DNA of 34,003 nucleotides from Anaerolineales bacterium (GTDB lineage: Bacteria; Chloroflexota; Anaerolineae; Anaerolineales; UBA11858), in assembly GCA_021108255.1 (NCBI GenBank), contig JAIORG010000066.1:1-34003 (forward strand). Direction: 5' to 3'. Within the stretch, counting starts at the first letter, position 1. Each line of letters opens with the position of its first letter. A model generated the notes under the pieces. The model did no database searches. It saw only the letters and a program-made list of their open reading frames with translations, and was not told the origin of the DNA. Positions 7,376 through 19,708 of this stretch are shown here, in pieces. The translations under genes were made by a program, and so were the position numbers.

Positions 7376-8148
7376 TGAAACGGCGAACTATTCTCACGCC
7401 TTATTTTCTAGATCAAGGGCTGCCAGGATTGGAAGCGCTGGCAGAGCCTGAGTGGATCATCAATCAAATGGTATTGCCCAAAGCGGACCTGTTAACCAGG
7501 ATATCCAGACTTCACGCCGCCCTGGCTGTTCAGGTGGAAGAAGCTGTCCGGGAGGGGCAGCTTCCAGTTTCCCTGGCCGGGGACTGCTGTACTGCTGTAG
7601 GAGTGCTGGCAGGATTAAACCGGGCTGAGCTATATCCGTTATTAATCTGGTTTGACGCCCATGGTGATTTTAATACCCGGGAGACCAGCCCCAGTGGTTT
7701 CTTGGGCGGTATGCCGTTGGCCATGCTGGCAGGATTAGGAGATTTAACCCTGCTGGAAAACCTGAAAATGGAAGCAATTCTCCAGGAACAGATCATACTT
7801 ACCGATGGCCGGGACCTGGATCCTGGCGAGAAGGAACTGGTAGCCAATGCTTCCCTCACCCATCTCCAGGATCCGCTGGAGTTGCTGAATTACCCGCTAG
7901 GAGAGCAATCGATCTGGGTCCATTTTGATACTGACATTGTGAACCCTGAAGAATCGCCGGCCCAGAATTATCCTGCACCGGGCGGCCCCGGCGCAGAGGA
8001 TCTGGAGCGGGTTTTCCGCTATTTAGCAAGCACTGGTTTGATTAAAGCTGTTTCGCTATCATCCTGGGCTCCGGGGCTGTCAGGTGAGCAGATGTCGAAG
8101 GATGTCAGCATGGGACTTTTGGAGATATTGGTTGGAGATGGAGATTAG
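7375..8148 (+). CDS. arginase/agmatinase family protein (divergent)
   Basis: WFDAHGDFNT and VHFDTDIVNPEESPAQNYPAPGG motifs; translationally coupled to the previous gene (TAATGA). Confidence 0.8.
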   Translation: MKRRTILTPYFLDQGLPGLEALAEPEWIINQMVLPKADLLTRISRLHAALAVQVEEAVREGQLPVSLAGDCCTAVGVLAGLNRAELYPLLIWFDAHGDFNTRETSPSGFLGGMPLAMLAGLGDLTLLENLKMEAILQEQIILTDGRDLDPGEKELVANASLTHLQDPLELLNYPLGEQSIWVHFDTDIVNPEESPAQNYPAPGGPGAEDLERVFRYLASTGLIKAVSLSSWAPGLSGEQMSKDVSMGLLEILVGDGD

Positions 8149-8489: not shown

Positions 8490-8535
8490 ACCCTGAGCGG
8501 ACTCCGAGTTTAATCGAGGAGGAAGACGAAGGGGT
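8490..8535. repeat. degenerate REP-like repeat (ACCCTGAGCGGA…GACGAAGGGGT)
   Basis: Half-sites resemble the common ACCCTGAGCGGAGTCGAAGGGT palindrome with an insertion between them. Confidence 0.45.
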
Positions 8536-8645
8536 AGCGAATGATGTGCACCCTCTTAATGACATTTAATTCCAGTAAGTGCCGGATTTGACGAATCTAT
8601 ATATAATAGTAAAATCATACCCCTAATCATCACTGGAGCTCCTTC

Positions 8646-9590
8646 ATGAAACCATTTCGCAAGAACGTGGCCCTGGCTGTTGATGGCGGTGGCATAAAAG
8701 GCGTCATTCCCTCCCGGGCAATTGCAGTCCTGGAGGATTACTTAAAACAACCAGCCTACAACATTTTCAGACTGCTGGCGGGAACTTCTACCGGATCCAT
8801 TATCTCTGCCGGTATTAGTACAGGGATGTTTGGTGATGAACTTCATGATTTGTACTGTGACTTTGGTCCAAAAATCTTCCGCAAGACCTGGCGGTCTGCC
8901 CTCTGGCCATTGACTCGATATCGCTATCCGCTGGATCCACTCCAGGAAGCTCTGGAAGAGTACCTGGGTGGGAAAACCATGGGAGATTTCTGGTGTTCCC
9001 GGCAGCCGACTGATCTTGTAATCACTGCTTTTGACCTGGTTAAGAATAAAACGCTTTTTATCAAACCGTTTAATAAATCAAAAGGCTACGACCAATGGAC
9101 GGTTGTGAAAGCAGTTCTCGCTTCCTCGTCAGTCCCCTCATATTTCCCGCCAGTGGAAAACCGGTATGTCGATGGGGGTGTAGGGTCTTATCATAATCCC
9201 TGTTATATCGCGGCCTATGAAGCCCAGTTTGTGCTGGGATGGGATCCGGCTGAGACTACCCTGATCAGTCTTGGGACGGGGCGGGAACCCCATTCCCTTG
9301 AACCGGAACAAATAAAACGCTTTTGGCCCTGGCATTGGATCAGCCCGGTTTTGGGCGCCTTTCAGCAGTCCTCTGATGATCAGCAGGTCCACCTGGTAGA
9401 GACTTTCTTTAATGAGTTGGATTTTCGGCGTTTCCAAGTGGATTTACAAGGATCTTATCCAATGGATGAACCGGAGAAGATCCCGGAGCTGACGGCTTAT
9501 GGTGACCTGCTGGGGGAGATGATACTCAATGACCAGGTGGATCAAGCCATGCGGATTCAGCCGAAAAAAGCGCCGAAGCCTGATCTGTAA
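8646..9590 (+). CDS. patatin-like phospholipase
   Basis: VDGGGIKGVIPSRAI oxyanion loop, AGTSTGSIISAG nucleophile elbow (GxSxG), RYVDGGVG catalytic Asp motif. Confidence 0.92.
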   Translation: MKPFRKNVALAVDGGGIKGVIPSRAIAVLEDYLKQPAYNIFRLLAGTSTGSIISAGISTGMFGDELHDLYCDFGPKIFRKTWRSALWPLTRYRYPLDPLQEALEEYLGGKTMGDFWCSRQPTDLVITAFDLVKNKTLFIKPFNKSKGYDQWTVVKAVLASSSVPSYFPPVENRYVDGGVGSYHNPCYIAAYEAQFVLGWDPAETTLISLGTGREPHSLEPEQIKRFWPWHWISPVLGAFQQSSDDQQVHLVETFFNELDFRRFQVDLQGSYPMDEPEKIPELTAYGDLLGEMILNDQVDQAMRIQPKKAPKPDL

Positions 9591-9710
9591 TTGAAATCCC
9601 TTTGGGGGTAGAATTTCCGAGTGAAGGAAATGTCCTGATGAAGAAAGTATATTGCTAAAGATGGACAACTAGTATTAGCAGGTTAGTTTTATTTGCTGAA
9701 TATTTAAAAT

Positions 9711-10994
9711 ATGTATTGGAAAAATAAAATCGGGAAGTTATTCTTTAGTTTATTTATTATCGTCATTGGAATTCTGCCAGTTCGTGGTTCGGAGGTAGAT
9801 CTTTCTCAACAGCTGGAGCAAATTCGATCTTATTCCCGTCCCTATGAATTTGATTATGCCTCCTGGATTGTTTCTGCCCTGGGACAAAAACTGACCCAGT
9901 CAAGCCTGAAAGTATACCGGTATACACCCGCGGGGGAAGAGCGACAGATTGTTCTGGACTACCTGGACTTAAGAAACCAGATCAACCAATCGCAGAATAT
10001 TTTAATTAGTGTTTTATCTGATCCTCAATTAGAAAACAGGGATCAGGCTTCTGCTGAGATCAAAAAAGAACTGGAGGAAATGCGTTCCCGGCGGGAAGAT
10101 ACAGCCCCCTTTGTGGAACAGATTATTCAGAGTCAGATGAATCACGCACTGGTAAATTTAGGAATGTCAGCGGGAGGACAGCTGGTCCCGCCAGTTCTCT
10201 ATCGGTCTGAACCTGATTCGTACGCCCTGATTGTCTCTCCCCGGGATGAGATCCAGCAGGCAGCCAATCTGATGCTGATCCGCAACCTCACCCTGGAGCA
10301 AATCATCCACCTGGAAGAAATCATTGAAAGGGAATTAAATCTGTCAGCGCTGGTGGTAGGCATCGGCGGCGTAGGGTTATATCCTTCCATGGTTATCGAG
10401 ACCGGAAATCTGGATTGGTTAATTCATGTCATCGGCCATGAATGGACCCACAATTTCCTCACAATCCGCCCCCTGGGAGCTAATTATTTCACCAGCCCGG
10501 AACTGACTACGATCAACGAAACTATCGCGGATCTTTCGGCGGACGAAATTCAAAGGGAAACTTTCCTGCTCTACTACCCGGAATTTTTACCAGCGGAATC
10601 CGTCGCAGAGGAACCTGAAGAAACTCCGCCCCCAGATCCAATTCCTGCAGGAGATGTTTTTGATTTTCGGGCGGAGATGCATATTACCCGGTTGGAAGTT
10701 GACCGCCTCCTTGCAGAAGGAGATATAAATAAAGCGGAAGACTATATGGAAACTCGCAGGCTTTTTTTTCTGGAAAACGGTTATTTGATCAGGAGATTAA
10801 ACCAGGCCTATTTTGCTTTTCACGGTTCTTATGCTGCTGCCCCCGGCGGTGCGGCGGATGCGGAAGGAGCGGATTTGGGCAGCCAACTGCGGGAGCTGAA
10901 GACAAACGCATCATCCTATGCAGCGTTTATGCATGAGGTCGCCTGGAAATGGCGGCTGGATCAATTCCAGAGACTTTTTGAGGAAAATAATTGA
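9711..10994 (+). CDS. secreted/membrane-anchored putative zinc metallopeptidase
   Basis: N-terminal signal/TM (LFFSLFIIVIGILPVRG), IGHEWTHNFL (HExxH), downstream INETIADLSADEI gluzincin-like Glu. Confidence 0.6.
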   Translation: MYWKNKIGKLFFSLFIIVIGILPVRGSEVDLSQQLEQIRSYSRPYEFDYASWIVSALGQKLTQSSLKVYRYTPAGEERQIVLDYLDLRNQINQSQNILISVLSDPQLENRDQASAEIKKELEEMRSRREDTAPFVEQIIQSQMNHALVNLGMSAGGQLVPPVLYRSEPDSYALIVSPRDEIQQAANLMLIRNLTLEQIIHLEEIIERELNLSALVVGIGGVGLYPSMVIETGNLDWLIHVIGHEWTHNFLTIRPLGANYFTSPELTTINETIADLSADEIQRETFLLYYPEFLPAESVAEEPEETPPPDPIPAGDVFDFRAEMHITRLEVDRLLAEGDINKAEDYMETRRLFFLENGYLIRRLNQAYFAFHGSYAAAPGGAADAEGADLGSQLRELKTNASSYAAFMHEVAWKWRLDQFQRLFEENN

Positions 10995-14464: not shown

Positions 14465-15772
14465 CTAAATCTCTGAGTATTGCCTAACAGATAAAAGCCA
14501 TTCATAAAGAGGCATAACATCCACTATAGTGCCCTCTGTTGTTATGGTTTCTTTGTCTGCCAGAGTGACAATTTGAAATCGATGTTGTTCTTTCTTTTCT
14601 TCGGAGAGTTCTACTAAAGAGCGAAGTTCTCGCAGCCTGGTTTCCTCATCGCTCAAGTCCTGACTGACCTGAATGGCCAGTTGTTGCGAAGGAACGAAAA
14701 AGTCAACCTCATGATTTTGCTTTGTTTTGTAATAGTAAACATCCTGGTATTGTCTTCGCAAATGGAGAAAAACAAGATTCTCCATTAAATTTCCAATATT
14801 CTTTGAAAATGAGAATCCAACTGAGTTCAGCATGCCAGTATCAACGCTGAATACTTTTTTGGCAGCTATTTGCTGTTCTTTGACTGAGTAGGCATACTTG
14901 TTGATCGTAAAAAATAACCAGGCATCTTCCAAGTAACTAATATATTTCTTCACTGTGTTAGCGCTGCCCAGTTTGAGGTTTGTTTTAAGTTTGTTATAGG
15001 AAATCTCAGAAGCTGGGTTGCTAACTAAATAGAAAGCCAGTTCCTGGAGGCTCCTTACATTTTCAATTCCATAACGAGCTGCGATATCCCTGTAAAGGAC
15101 ATCGTTGTACAGGGTTTTGAGTATATCTAACTTGGGATACTTTAAAGCATCAGGTATACCACCATTGACTAAGTACTCTCGTGAATGCTTCAATAAGGCT
15201 CCCCTTTCGCGAGTGGTTAGGACCGATGTCTTTGGTGATTCAACGCCGTGAAACGCTATATATTCCCTAAATGAAAATGGAAATAGCTCATAGCGAAGAG
15301 ATCTGCCGGTAAGCTTTGTTCCCAGCTCCTGCCCCAATAGGGAAGAGTTGGACCCAGTGATGATGAACTGATACCCCTGGTCGTGAAGCCGGCGGACAAA
15401 ACGTTCCCATTCTGGAACATTTTGAATTTCATCAAACAAGAATATCTTTCTGTCACCAAATAAACTAATTAAGGCTTCATGGAGACGGTCAAATTGATCC
15501 GCTGTAAAATTCAGCAGGCGTTCATCTTCAAAGTTGACAAAGAAGTAGTTATCAGCCAGTTGATTGTGGGCGATTTGGGCCAGCAGTGTAGACTTGCCGA
15601 CTCTTCGGAGACCGGTGATGACCAATGTTTTTGGTGAGGCTAACCCCGCAATAATCTCTGGGAGGATTTCCCGCGGGGTTCCTAAATCAATATTGGAAAA
15701 GGTTTCATGTTGTTCCTTGAGAACGGAACTCAATCGCTCTAAGGGTAGGTTCTGGAAGGTCTGATTATTCAT
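14465..15772 (-). CDS. AAA_14/DUF4143 family ATP-binding protein
   Basis: VITGLRRVGKSTLLAQIA (Walker A), KIFLFDEIQNVPEWERFVRRLHDQG, ITGSNSSLLGQELGTKLTGRSLRYELFPFSFREY; C-terminal DUF4143-like nuclease-fold region (YYYKTKQNHEVDFFV). Confidence 0.92.
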   Translation of the reverse strand: MNNQTFQNLPLERLSSVLKEQHETFSNIDLGTPREILPEIIAGLASPKTLVITGLRRVGKSTLLAQIAHNQLADNYFFVNFEDERLLNFTADQFDRLHEALISLFGDRKIFLFDEIQNVPEWERFVRRLHDQGYQFIITGSNSSLLGQELGTKLTGRSLRYELFPFSFREYIAFHGVESPKTSVLTTRERGALLKHSREYLVNGGIPDALKYPKLDILKTLYNDVLYRDIAARYGIENVRSLQELAFYLVSNPASEISYNKLKTNLKLGSANTVKKYISYLEDAWLFFTINKYAYSVKEQQIAAKKVFSVDTGMLNSVGFSFSKNIGNLMENLVFLHLRRQYQDVYYYKTKQNHEVDFFVPSQQLAIQVSQDLSDEETRLRELRSLVELSEEKKEQHRFQIVTLADKETITTEGTIVDVMPLYEWLLSVRQYSEI

Positions 15773-15924: not shown

Positions 15925-16143
15925 TTACATAGATTCCATAGTGATTGGAGGGGCAATTTCATCCATGATGGCAGTAGCTTTTTCCTGTACACCAGTAACT
16001 TTATGACCATAGATGTCCAATGTGACACTGGATTTGCTGGGACCCAAACGTTTTGATACTGTCAGGATATCGCCCCTATTTCTTTTCAAGAAATCAATCT
16101 TGAATAAACATATCCGTGTAGGTTGTAAGCCTTTATCCGCCAA
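15925..16143 (-). pseudogene. C-terminal relic of a tyrosine recombinase/phage integrase
   Basis: TVSKRLGPSKSSVTLDIYGHKVTGVQEKATAIMDEI aligns by eye with integrase C-termini (VSERLGHSSVSITLDIYSHVLPGMQEEAA); HxxR box region absent or degenerate; N-terminal domain missing. Confidence 0.6.
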
Positions 16144-16485: not shown

Positions 16486-18093
16486 ATGAAGCTTAAAAAT
16501 AAACTTGCAAATAATTTAGTTTATCTCTATACGATCAGTTTAAGCCTAGTTCCTGCTGTTACCTTATATTGGAGCAGTGGTGTTCCTATCCAACATGCCT
16601 ACTTATCTTGGATCACTATTGCATTTATTATTGGGATTTTGGTCATTAGCATTAACTCCTTCACAAAAAGCAAACAAAAGGCGGGTGTGATTGTGGCTGC
16701 AATCTCAATCGCATTCTTCTATTTTGGAAATTTCCTTCAACTCATAATTTCCATTTCTATGACAGCGGGTATCATCCAAGAAAAATCAGTTTTAGAAAAT
16801 TCAATTGTGCTGCCAGTGGTTTTTTTCATCAGCTGGTCAATATTATGGATTGTGATCACCCGGATCATTATCCGGTCAGATTCATTAACACAAAAAAGTG
16901 ATTATTATCTAAGTGTTGTTTCAATAATCCTATTGGTTTTCATGGTAAGCGGGGTTGGATTGAAAATTGATGTTTCAAGCAAAAATAAAAAACTCATAGA
17001 GTCAATCTTATTGAATAATTCGGAACTAGATCCTTATGCGGGTATAGCTCTTACTAGCTATGATAATGAGAATTCCCCTGATATTTATTATTTAATATTC
17101 GATGGTTTTGCTGGACCTAACATATTATTGAAATATTATGATACGGATATTCTATATTTCATTCAACAGCTTGAAAAAAGAGGGGTATATGTAGCAAATG
17201 AGAGCAAATCAAATTACAGCATGACCATTAGCTCCCTTCCATCTTCATTAAATATGAATTATTGGGATGAACTTGCCAGAAATGAGATTAAGGATGTTGG
17301 TTGGATCCCAGTGATTCCATTATTACATGACAATCTAGTCTCAAATTATCTACACAATAGAGGATATGATCTAGTTACTTTCCCAAGCGGATTTTGGCCT
17401 ACAGAAGATTTCCAGACAGACATGAAAATAAGCCCTCTGATCAATCTGAATGAGTACCAGGAAAACTTACTATTGTATACTCCAGTTCCGCGAATCTTTC
17501 CAAGTATCTTATATGACAATCATCGAAATAGGATTAACTTTACATTGAATAGCCTGAAGAATATTACAAATGAGGAAAGACCGATTTTTGTATTTGCTCA
17601 TATCCTAACCCCACATCCACCCTTTATCTTTGATGGGGAGGGAAATCCAGTTCACCCTCAAAGGACATATAATCATTTTGATGCCGATGATTATCGAAAA
17701 TTAGGAGGTACTACTGCAGAGTATCAAGAAATGTATTCAGATCAGTTGAACTATATCTTTAGTGAAATTCTAGAAATGATCGATGGAATTCTATTAGAGT
17801 CCGAATCGCCTCCCATCTTAATTATTCAAGGTGACCATGGTCCTGGTTCGCTGGTTTCACAGTCGCACTTTGAAGAAAACAACCTAGATGAAAGATTCTC
17901 AATCATGAACGCATATTATTTTCCAGATAAAGACTATAGTTCACTTTACCCATCGATAACGCCAGTAAATACATTTAGAGTGATATTAAATAAATATTTC
18001 GAAGAAAATTTACCCTTATTACCAGACAAGAACTATTTTTCCATTCTTTATCATCCTTATGAGTTTATTGATGTGACAGAGATACTAAAATAG
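16486..18093 (+). CDS. membrane-anchored AlkP-superfamily (sulfatase/LTA-synthase-like) transferase or hydrolase
   Basis: N-terminal TM helices, then PDIYYLIFDGFAGPNILLKYY…SNYSMTISSLPSSLNM…FVFAHILTPHPPFIFD…ILIIQGDHGPG. Confidence 0.82.
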   Translation: MKLKNKLANNLVYLYTISLSLVPAVTLYWSSGVPIQHAYLSWITIAFIIGILVISINSFTKSKQKAGVIVAAISIAFFYFGNFLQLIISISMTAGIIQEKSVLENSIVLPVVFFISWSILWIVITRIIIRSDSLTQKSDYYLSVVSIILLVFMVSGVGLKIDVSSKNKKLIESILLNNSELDPYAGIALTSYDNENSPDIYYLIFDGFAGPNILLKYYDTDILYFIQQLEKRGVYVANESKSNYSMTISSLPSSLNMNYWDELARNEIKDVGWIPVIPLLHDNLVSNYLHNRGYDLVTFPSGFWPTEDFQTDMKISPLINLNEYQENLLLYTPVPRIFPSILYDNHRNRINFTLNSLKNITNEERPIFVFAHILTPHPPFIFDGEGNPVHPQRTYNHFDADDYRKLGGTTAEYQEMYSDQLNYIFSEILEMIDGILLESESPPILIIQGDHGPGSLVSQSHFEENNLDERFSIMNAYYFPDKDYSSLYPSITPVNTFRVILNKYFEENLPLLPDKNYFSILYHPYEFIDVTEILK

Positions 18094-18142
18094 AATAGTA
18101 GATTTTTTCATGAAATCATCTATAGATTAAAGGAGTTTAATT

Positions 18143-18307
18143 ATGTCCGGTTTTCCCGCCCCCAAACTGTATCTTGACCCTGGCACAGGAAGTATCCTTA
18201 TTCAGGTGATCCTGGCTTCCGTCCTGGGATTTTTATTTATCATCAGGACAAAAATTACCAGCGCGGTTAAGTGGCTCTGGAGCAAGCTTAGCGATAAAGG
18301 AGAATAA
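18143..18307 (+). CDS. 54-aa YLDPGTGS-type single-TM microprotein (absent from the ORF track)
   Basis: Manual translation MSGFPAPKLYLDPGTGSILIQVILASVLGFLFIIRTKITSAVKWLWSKLSDKGE*; AGGAG at 18131-18135; stop abuts the next ATG (TAAATG). Confidence 0.82.
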   Translation: MSGFPAPKLYLDPGTGSILIQVILASVLGFLFIIRTKITSAVKWLWSKLSDKGE

Positions 18308-19708
18308 ATGAAGGGTTTCTCCAGGGATAAGGGATCGTTTCGTGACCCCGGTGGATTCATCTATTCCAGAGATGGGAATGTATATCGTCAGATCAACATC
18401 TCTTCCAGGGATGATTTTGATTATTTAATGGATTCAGGACTTTACCAGGACCTTGTCGAAAGGAACCTGATCGTCGAACATGAAGAGGTTGATATTGCTC
18501 CATTCGATAAATCTACTTCTTATAAAGTGATCCAACCCACGAAACTGCCCTTTATTTTTTATCCCTATGAGTGGTGTTTCAGCCAATATCAAAGGGCAGC
18601 TTTAGCTACTCTTGAAATTCAAAATAAAGCATTGGATTATGGCATGACTTTAAAGGACGCCAGTGCTTATAATATCCAGTTTGTGAATAACGATCCTGTG
18701 TTGATTGACACTTTATCCTTCGAGATTTACAAGGAAGGTAGCCCCTGGGAAGGCTACCAGCAGTTTTGCAAACATTTCTTCGCTCCCTTGCTTCTGATGT
18801 CTTACCGGGACGTCAGACTAAATACCTTGCTGCGTGGATTTATTGATGGAATTCCTTTAGAGATTGCCAGCAGTCTGCTTCCAGCTAAAACAAGATTTAA
18901 TTTCTCAATCCTGGCACACATACACCTGCATGCAAAAGCTCAAGAGAGATATAAGGGTGGTGGTGAAGAGGGAGATCAAGTCGGTGAGGTTTCTAAACTG
19001 GGCTTGAGGAAAGAAGGCATATACAGCATTGTTGACAGCCTTGAACGGCAGATTAAGAAACTGACCTATCAGATCAATGACACCTCCTGGGGAGACTATT
19101 GTTCTTTTCATAATTACTCAGAAGATGCTTACCTGCAGAAAATGATGCTTGTTGAAACATTCATCCAACAAGCAAAACCAACTATAGTCTGGGATTTTGG
19201 CGCCAATACGGGCGATTTCAGTCGGCTTGCTAGCAGGAAGGGCATTACAACGATATCTTTCGATATTGATCCCGCTGCGGTTGAACAGGGCTACCTAAAG
19301 AGTGTTGGTGATAACGACAGTAATATTCACCATGCTATCATCGACTTGTTCAATCCAAGCCCTAACCTGGGATGGAGTAATGTCGAACGGAAATCCTTGG
19401 TGGACAGAGGGCCCACAGACCTTCTTTTGGCCCTAGCGCTTATTCATCACCTGGCTATTGCAAACAACCTTCCCCTTTATATGGTTAGCAGCTTCTTTTC
19501 TGAATTAACTGAGTGGCTGGTAATTGAGTTTGTGCCTAAAAAAGACTCTCAGACAAAGATACTACTTTCCTCAAGACGGGATATTTTCAATGATTACACG
19601 ATAGAAAATTTTGAAGAAGTTTTCTCAAAGGATTTTTCTGTGATAGAAAAGGCGCAGATAGAGGGTACAGAAAGAACGCTATACCTGATGAAAAAGATTG
19701 TTAAATAG
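18308..19708 (+). CDS. NoeA-like protein: N-terminal kinase-fold-like region plus SAM-dependent methyltransferase
   Basis: LKDASAYNIQFVNNDPVLIDTLSFEIY (kinase-like loop motif) followed by IVWDFGANTGDFSRLASRKGITTISFDIDPAAVEQGY (SAM motif I). Confidence 0.78.
   Translation: MKGFSRDKGSFRDPGGFIYSRDGNVYRQINISSRDDFDYLMDSGLYQDLVERNLIVEHEEVDIAPFDKSTSYKVIQPTKLPFIFYPYEWCFSQYQRAALATLEIQNKALDYGMTLKDASAYNIQFVNNDPVLIDTLSFEIYKEGSPWEGYQQFCKHFFAPLLLMSYRDVRLNTLLRGFIDGIPLEIASSLLPAKTRFNFSILAHIHLHAKAQERYKGGGEEGDQVGEVSKLGLRKEGIYSIVDSLERQIKKLTYQINDTSWGDYCSFHNYSEDAYLQKMMLVETFIQQAKPTIVWDFGANTGDFSRLASRKGITTISFDIDPAAVEQGYLKSVGDNDSNIHHAIIDLFNPSPNLGWSNVERKSLVDRGPTDLLLALALIHHLAIANNLPLYMVSSFFSELTEWLVIEFVPKKDSQTKILLSSRRDIFNDYTIENFEEVFSKDFSVIEKAQIEGTERTLYLMKKIVK

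Follow-up and report, generated by a model that had tools for sequence, protein, structure and literature searches.

Three tightly spaced genes on a contig of an Anaerolineales bacterium raise the question of whether they form one functional unit, what such a unit would do, and whether it has been described before. The window, i.e., the whole stretch of DNA that was analysed, is an entire 34-kb contig of an assembly of 2.98 Mb. A sequence-only reading had interpreted the three genes as a surface-polymer-like cassette of a membrane transferase, a YLDPGTGS microprotein and a kinase/methyltransferase, and had proposed them as an undescribed system.

Gene arrangement and composition of the locus

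The three co-directional genes were found exactly where that reading had placed them (Table 1), with a gap of 49 nt between the AlkP gene and the microprotein gene and with the stop codon of the latter abutting the NoeA start (TAAATG). A ribosome-binding-like GGAG is located just 5' of the NoeA start, within the final codons of the microprotein gene, suggesting that translation of the microprotein and NoeA is probably coupled.

Table 1. Features of the locus and its surroundings in the window
Feature	Positions	Strand	Evidence
427-aa ORF	9711-10994	+	without significant Pfam match
AAA_14/DUF4143 ATPase, adjoining the integrase-like fragment	14465-15772	-	Pfam, E 5e-38 and 1e-24
Tyrosine recombinase/integrase, degenerate C-terminal fragment, outside the module	15925..16143	-	PHROG integrase, E 0.005 (weak)
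AlkP-superfamily membrane transferase (NoeB-type), 535 aa	16486..18093	+	ORF, Pfam, AF2, fold search, profile
Microprotein, 54 aa	18143..18307	+	ORF, profile matches
NoeA-family kinase-like + class I SAM methyltransferase, 466 aa	18308..19708	+	homology, AF2, profile

The locus had also been described as visibly AT-rich, which is correct for the AlkP gene (34.5% GC, GC3 32%) but not as a uniform feature, because the NoeA and microprotein genes have 41.9% and 46.7% GC, respectively; it is thus mainly the AlkP gene that accounts for the dip. For reference, the GC content is 46.3% in the window and about 45.6% in ten other 20-kb stretches from the same genome. On the left, the anticipated AAA-DUF4143 gene was confirmed by its Pfam matches (41.8% GC, below its own left flank), and the proposed integrase relic was weakly supported by a match to the C-terminal end of the PHROG profile. 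Housekeeping genes on the right of the cassette were identified by eye. The low GC of the AlkP gene, the integrase-like fragment and the branching of the window NoeA among mixed phyla, rather than with Anaerolineales, suggest that the cassette was acquired, and horizontal acquisition is plausible. As tree support was weak and the AU test did not reject a Chloroflexota placement of the window NoeA (p 0.41), horizontal transfer was not adopted as a firm reading.

The three predicted proteins

The window NoeA shares 34% identity with Sinorhizobium meliloti NoeA across 98% of its length (plasmid records; profile E 7e-117), and this full-length homology bears out the earlier assignment to a NoeA-type kinase/methyltransferase. 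In the AF2 model, built with 75 aligned relatives (pLDDT 91.1, pTM 0.92), the best PDB fold was WbdD (E 1.2e-8), with ~220 columns aligned on the methyltransferase side. R27, D117, N122 and D134 as well as the SAM site D296-x-G-x-N-x-G were invariant in all 75 relatives, and kinase roles of the first four residues follow from the family assignment in the Legionella kinome study, in which an Arg in place of the usual catalytic Lys was reported for the NoeA family (PMC9758233). With this replacement, the activity of the kinase part may have been changed or even lost. The window protein thus possesses both NoeA domains over its full length, together with the D...N...D pattern and the Arg-for-Lys substitution. 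No published report of kinase or methyltransferase activity of NoeA, or of NoeB biochemistry, was found.

In the AF2 model of the AlkP protein (pLDDT 88.5, pTM 0.90), an extracytoplasmic AlkP domain comes after N-terminal membrane helices, and EptC, EptA and MCR-1 were the best PDB folds of the protein; its match to PF00884 was below the Pfam cutoff (E 1.3e-4). A profile of its relatives matched S. meliloti NoeB distantly and in three pieces (E 1.6e-15). By profile comparison it is a distant relative of NoeB, and it models as an EptA/EptC-like membrane transferase, combining NoeB homology with the helices, AlkP fold and Thr/Ser nucleophile of such enzymes; for phosphoethanolamine transfer from PE, the resemblance to the EptA type may be read at the fold level only. 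Putative catalytic residues are D206, T247 (in the motif SNYSMTISS), D450 and H451, and H372 and H377 are also conserved. In the alignment, the nucleophile position was occupied by Thr or Ser and never by Cys in 38 of 38 relatives, and D450 was likewise present in all 38. The formylglycine Cys/Ser in C-x-P-x-R that characterises arylsulfatases (S1) was absent, and the Thr/Ser nucleophile implies that the protein is not a usual formylglycine sulfatase. A plain sulfatase was rejected because of this residue and the EptA-family fold, in agreement with the membrane transferase that had been predicted. In five of the 38 relatives (e.g., L065 and L070), D-E replaces the metal-binding D-H at the H451 column.

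The window microprotein begins with MSGFPAPKL-YLDPGTGS-ILIQ, continues with a membrane helix and a basic tail, and represents a leaderless form. Among 70 collected copies, the motif reads Y(100%)-L/I-D(100%)-P-G-T/S-G-S with Q at position 12 (100%), the 100% values being partly circular because Y, D and Q belonged to the collection rule, which did not apply to the profile searches. The motif is followed by a hydrophobic helix, K/R at position 26, W at position 29 and a basic tail. A hydrophobic leader precedes it in 45 copies (a short stretch in the others, including that of the window), and 38 of these 45 have A or G at position -1, resembling a signal-peptidase site. The leader with its cleavage-like site and the basic residues after the helix fit an N-out/C-in topology. 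At one locus (L084), where the microprotein ORF stops shortly ahead of NoeA at 7980, the microprotein has a zinc-ribbon-like CxxC...CxxC extension at its C-terminus, a feature that a cytoplasmic tail would lead one to expect. Of the roles first suggested, membrane partner or adaptor, that of a membrane partner is probable.

The YLDPGTGS family is defined here by Y-[LIV]-D-[PA]-[GAS]-x-G-S...Q, one helix, a basic tail and pairing with NoeA, all of which were found for the window microprotein. No model in Pfam or NCBIfam covers it, and a search of the available literature for the YLDPGTGS motif in this sense returned nothing. A dN/dS of ~0.23 in a comparison of S. meliloti with Rhizobium T136 indicated purifying selection. 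In addition, a second subtype, MYIDPNTGGILFQ..., was detected in two genomes (L184, G028:C21:30512-30670; L185, G064:C9:107273-107425) directly 5' of a PF01663 type I phosphodiesterase of the AlkP superfamily, in clusters that contain sulfatases and sulfotransferases and lack NoeA; on this basis, the family may have a wider role alongside AlkP-type enzymes. Another genome has two copies with a YIDTSTGS motif (L201 and L195, G201:C137) beside several NoeB-type AlkP paralogues.

Co-occurrence across genomes

A scan of 85,462 species yielded at least 580 NoeA relatives, of which 80 from many bacterial phyla and Methanoculleus were kept. Of the 79 loci at which the NoeA ORF was usable, 70 had the microprotein gene nearby; at most loci it abuts the start of NoeA or overlaps it, and genomes without a local copy had one elsewhere, except four in which NoeA lies at a contig start. 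An initial count of 28/80 loci lacking the microprotein proved to be artefactual, having been caused by too strict a motif, by limits set on the ORFs and by contig starts. Similarly, apparent microprotein-NoeA gene fusions, considered as evidence that the two proteins interact, were out-of-frame start artefacts, i.e., long NoeA ORFs running over the microprotein, and none was found.

Whole-genome profile searches gave the same picture. NoeA was detected in 19 of 151 Chloroflexota genomes and the microprotein in those 19 plus one (matches with E above 0.001, inside large unrelated frames, were set aside); complete NoeA was detected in 7 of 249 Bacteroidota genomes and the microprotein in exactly those 7; and in the archaeal phylum of Methanoculleus both occur, adjacent, in the same 4 of 199 genomes. 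Pooled over the three phyla, the microprotein was present in 30/30 genomes with NoeA and in 1/569 without it (Fisher p 3e-23, 9e-14 and 2e-8 for Chloroflexota, Bacteroidota and archaea, respectively, values that relatedness makes too optimistic). One Bacteroidota locus (L209, G439:C12:142463-142936) matches the NoeA kinase part alone in a genome that lacks the microprotein, hinting at an association of the microprotein with the complete kinase-methyltransferase. Unannotated microproteins were also observed on a Singulisphaera plasmid, followed by a methyltransferase and an 'LTA synthase family' gene, and just downstream of a methyltransferase in Deltaproteobacterium Smac51. A check for phage carriage gave no match among 50,697 phage records.

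The triad, whose recurrence outside close kin the sequence-only reading had asked for, was found well outside that circle. The window order (AlkP-microprotein-NoeA) is a minority order, and microprotein-NoeA-AlkP is the commoner one. As it recurs across phyla, the three-gene arrangement is far beyond chance. In a genome with a second microprotein copy (L186, G101:C39, around 8524-9894), this copy adjoins an oppositely oriented NoeB-type AlkP gene; the ORF that follows the copy has a NoeA-like start (...TRLPGH...) followed by unrelated protein and is apparently a decayed or replaced NoeA.

Whether the AlkP transferase belongs to the same unit is less straightforward. It is possible that the functional unit consists of the microprotein and NoeA alone, NoeA modifying a membrane lipid or the microprotein itself, and that the AlkP protein is a separate co-travelling decoration enzyme; we regard this as a tentative alternative. 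Compared with the near-total linkage of microprotein and NoeA, a codirectional AlkP gene directly flanks NoeA at about half of the loci overall (downstream at 29/69, upstream at 6/67), and the very different GC of the window AlkP gene points the same way. Moreover, two NoeA genomes have no AlkP match at all: G112, a one-contig genome, carries NoeA and the microprotein, and G096 has both genes broken, a state that fits joint decay. Against a unit without AlkP, the NoeB-type AlkP of Chloroflexota was confined to genomes with NoeA (17 genomes, all among the 19; Fisher p 1e-20), and in the operon of rhizobia noeB comes after noeA. The microprotein is paired more strictly with NoeA than with AlkP, an argument that it would primarily serve NoeA.

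Proposed function and likeness to named systems

The reading that we prefer, with moderate confidence, is that the cassette is a three-part envelope-modification module of the noeA-noeB type, composed, as judged by sequence, of a predicted cytoplasmic NoeA kinase-methyltransferase, a near-obligate single-helix microprotein and a NoeB-type AlkP-fold transferase. The microprotein would span the membrane N-out/C-in, with YLDPGTGS at the outer face and the basic W-x-K-I-K tail inside, where the tail may anchor NoeA beside its substrate. NoeA would then phosphorylate and subsequently methylate a lipid-linked glycan or head group in a WbdD-like manner, and the Thr of the AlkP protein could act as a covalent phospho-carrier that moves a phospho-substituent between lipid and glycan outside the cell. 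In S. meliloti, the same set may tune a surface or secreted glycan signal for host-specific nodulation. Several observations speak against this envelope module: the WbdD match covers the methyltransferase half, AlkP adjacency is partial, and the neighbours are not consistently polysaccharide genes. Among 143 neighbour genes of NoeA, no consistent polysaccharide-gene neighbourhood was found; glycosyltransferases were among the most frequent, yet few (8/143), and GreA near NoeA is probably shared synteny of close relatives.

It is unlikely that the target of NoeA and NoeB is a soluble, diffusible signal, such as the Nod factor, instead of an envelope polymer. This hypothesis has been published for rhizobia (PMC9048898, PMC9758233), where the operon is shared with nodL, but the module is also present in groups not known as Nod-factor makers (Chloroflexota, Zixibacteria, candidate phyla, methanogens), and the AlkP enzyme and the microprotein are membrane proteins. 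Very improbable is the possibility that the microprotein acts as a leader peptide or regulatory ORF of NoeA and is not itself a functional protein, as its short length and position at the NoeA start might suggest; residue-level conservation in bacteria and archaea, the purifying selection noted above, and genomes that place it 3' of NoeA, one gene off or elsewhere all stand against such a role. The notion of an ordinary sulfatase in a chance or horizontally transferred assembly, which could invoke PF00884 as the main family match and the AT-rich AlkP gene near the integrase fragment, is largely refuted by the nucleophile residue, by the EptA-family fold with membrane helices and by genome-level co-occurrence.

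The three-part envelope module can also be extended to a bolder and rather doubtful claim, in which the YLDPGTGS microprotein would be an obligate ancient membrane partner of the kinase-methyltransferase. Together with AlkP-fold transferases, the two would make up a three-part machine, widespread in bacteria and methanogens and undescribed so far, that carries out phospho-methyl modification of glycans or lipids of the envelope, and the nod box n5 operon of S. meliloti would contain a fourth gene that has been overlooked and that host-specific nodulation requires. The data indicate that the noeA/noeB set is a module common to many phyla and methanogens, with an overlooked third component that is absent from family libraries and often left unannotated. 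This component would be required in any reconstitution of NoeA, and knowing it makes the question of the role of NoeA directly testable.

Among named systems, EptA, EptC, MCR-1 and LTA synthases share membrane helices, an extracytoplasmic AlkP domain and a Thr nucleophile with the AlkP protein, at about 12-15% identity. WbdD, the kinase-methyltransferase of the E. coli O9a O-antigen, phosphorylates the glycan end and then methylates that phosphate, and it resembles NoeA in its fused kinase-like and methyltransferase domains. In WbdD the kinase part is C-terminal, whereas in NoeA it is N-terminal, so that the domain order is reversed; NoeA also lacks the WbdD coiled coil, and sequence similarity to the window NoeA is negligible (profile E about 0.3, methyltransferase part only). 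Neither detectable sequence homology nor the same domain order thus links the window NoeA to WbdD.

Closer counterparts exist in Legionella and rhizobia. The 2022 kinome study described the NoeA family as a kinase plus a methyltransferase in about 1,200 species and listed as its neighbours Lani_1193 (65%) and the AlkP-fold NoeB Lani_1195 (38%) of 816 (PMC9758233). The cluster Lani_1193-1194-1195 pairs the kinase-methyltransferase with an AlkP-fold neighbour as in the window; Lani_1193, which the text of that paper does not describe, is presumably a YLDPGTGS microprotein, and the profile-based microprotein-NoeA linkage obtained here is much above the 65% reported for it. The genes nodL-noeA-noeB are host-range nodulation genes with a hypothesised role in Nod-factor modification (PMC9048898, PMC10945364), and noeA and noeB have been known as such since 1995 (Ardourel 1995, as cited in later papers). 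In the S. meliloti nod box n5 operon, a 71-aa ORF between nodL and noeA, immediately 5' of the latter and labelled 'hypothetical protein' or unannotated, encodes MPIIMSVVGFLILSIVPAHA-YLDPGTGS-MLVQ..., and a profile built without this ORF still finds it (E 4e-14); the microprotein was present in all 61 noeA plasmid records of Sinorhizobium, Rhizobium and Ensifer. Given this match to [71-aa ORF]-noeA-noeB and the conserved neighbourhood already reported in PMC9758233, the cassette is not the undescribed system that had been proposed. All three window products have homologs in the rhizobial operon, from which the window cassette differs in its order (AlkP-microprotein-NoeA), in the lack of nodL and in not being part of a symbiont gene set; what is new here is the identity of the small component, its near-obligate presence, its probable topology and its place in the classical nod operon.
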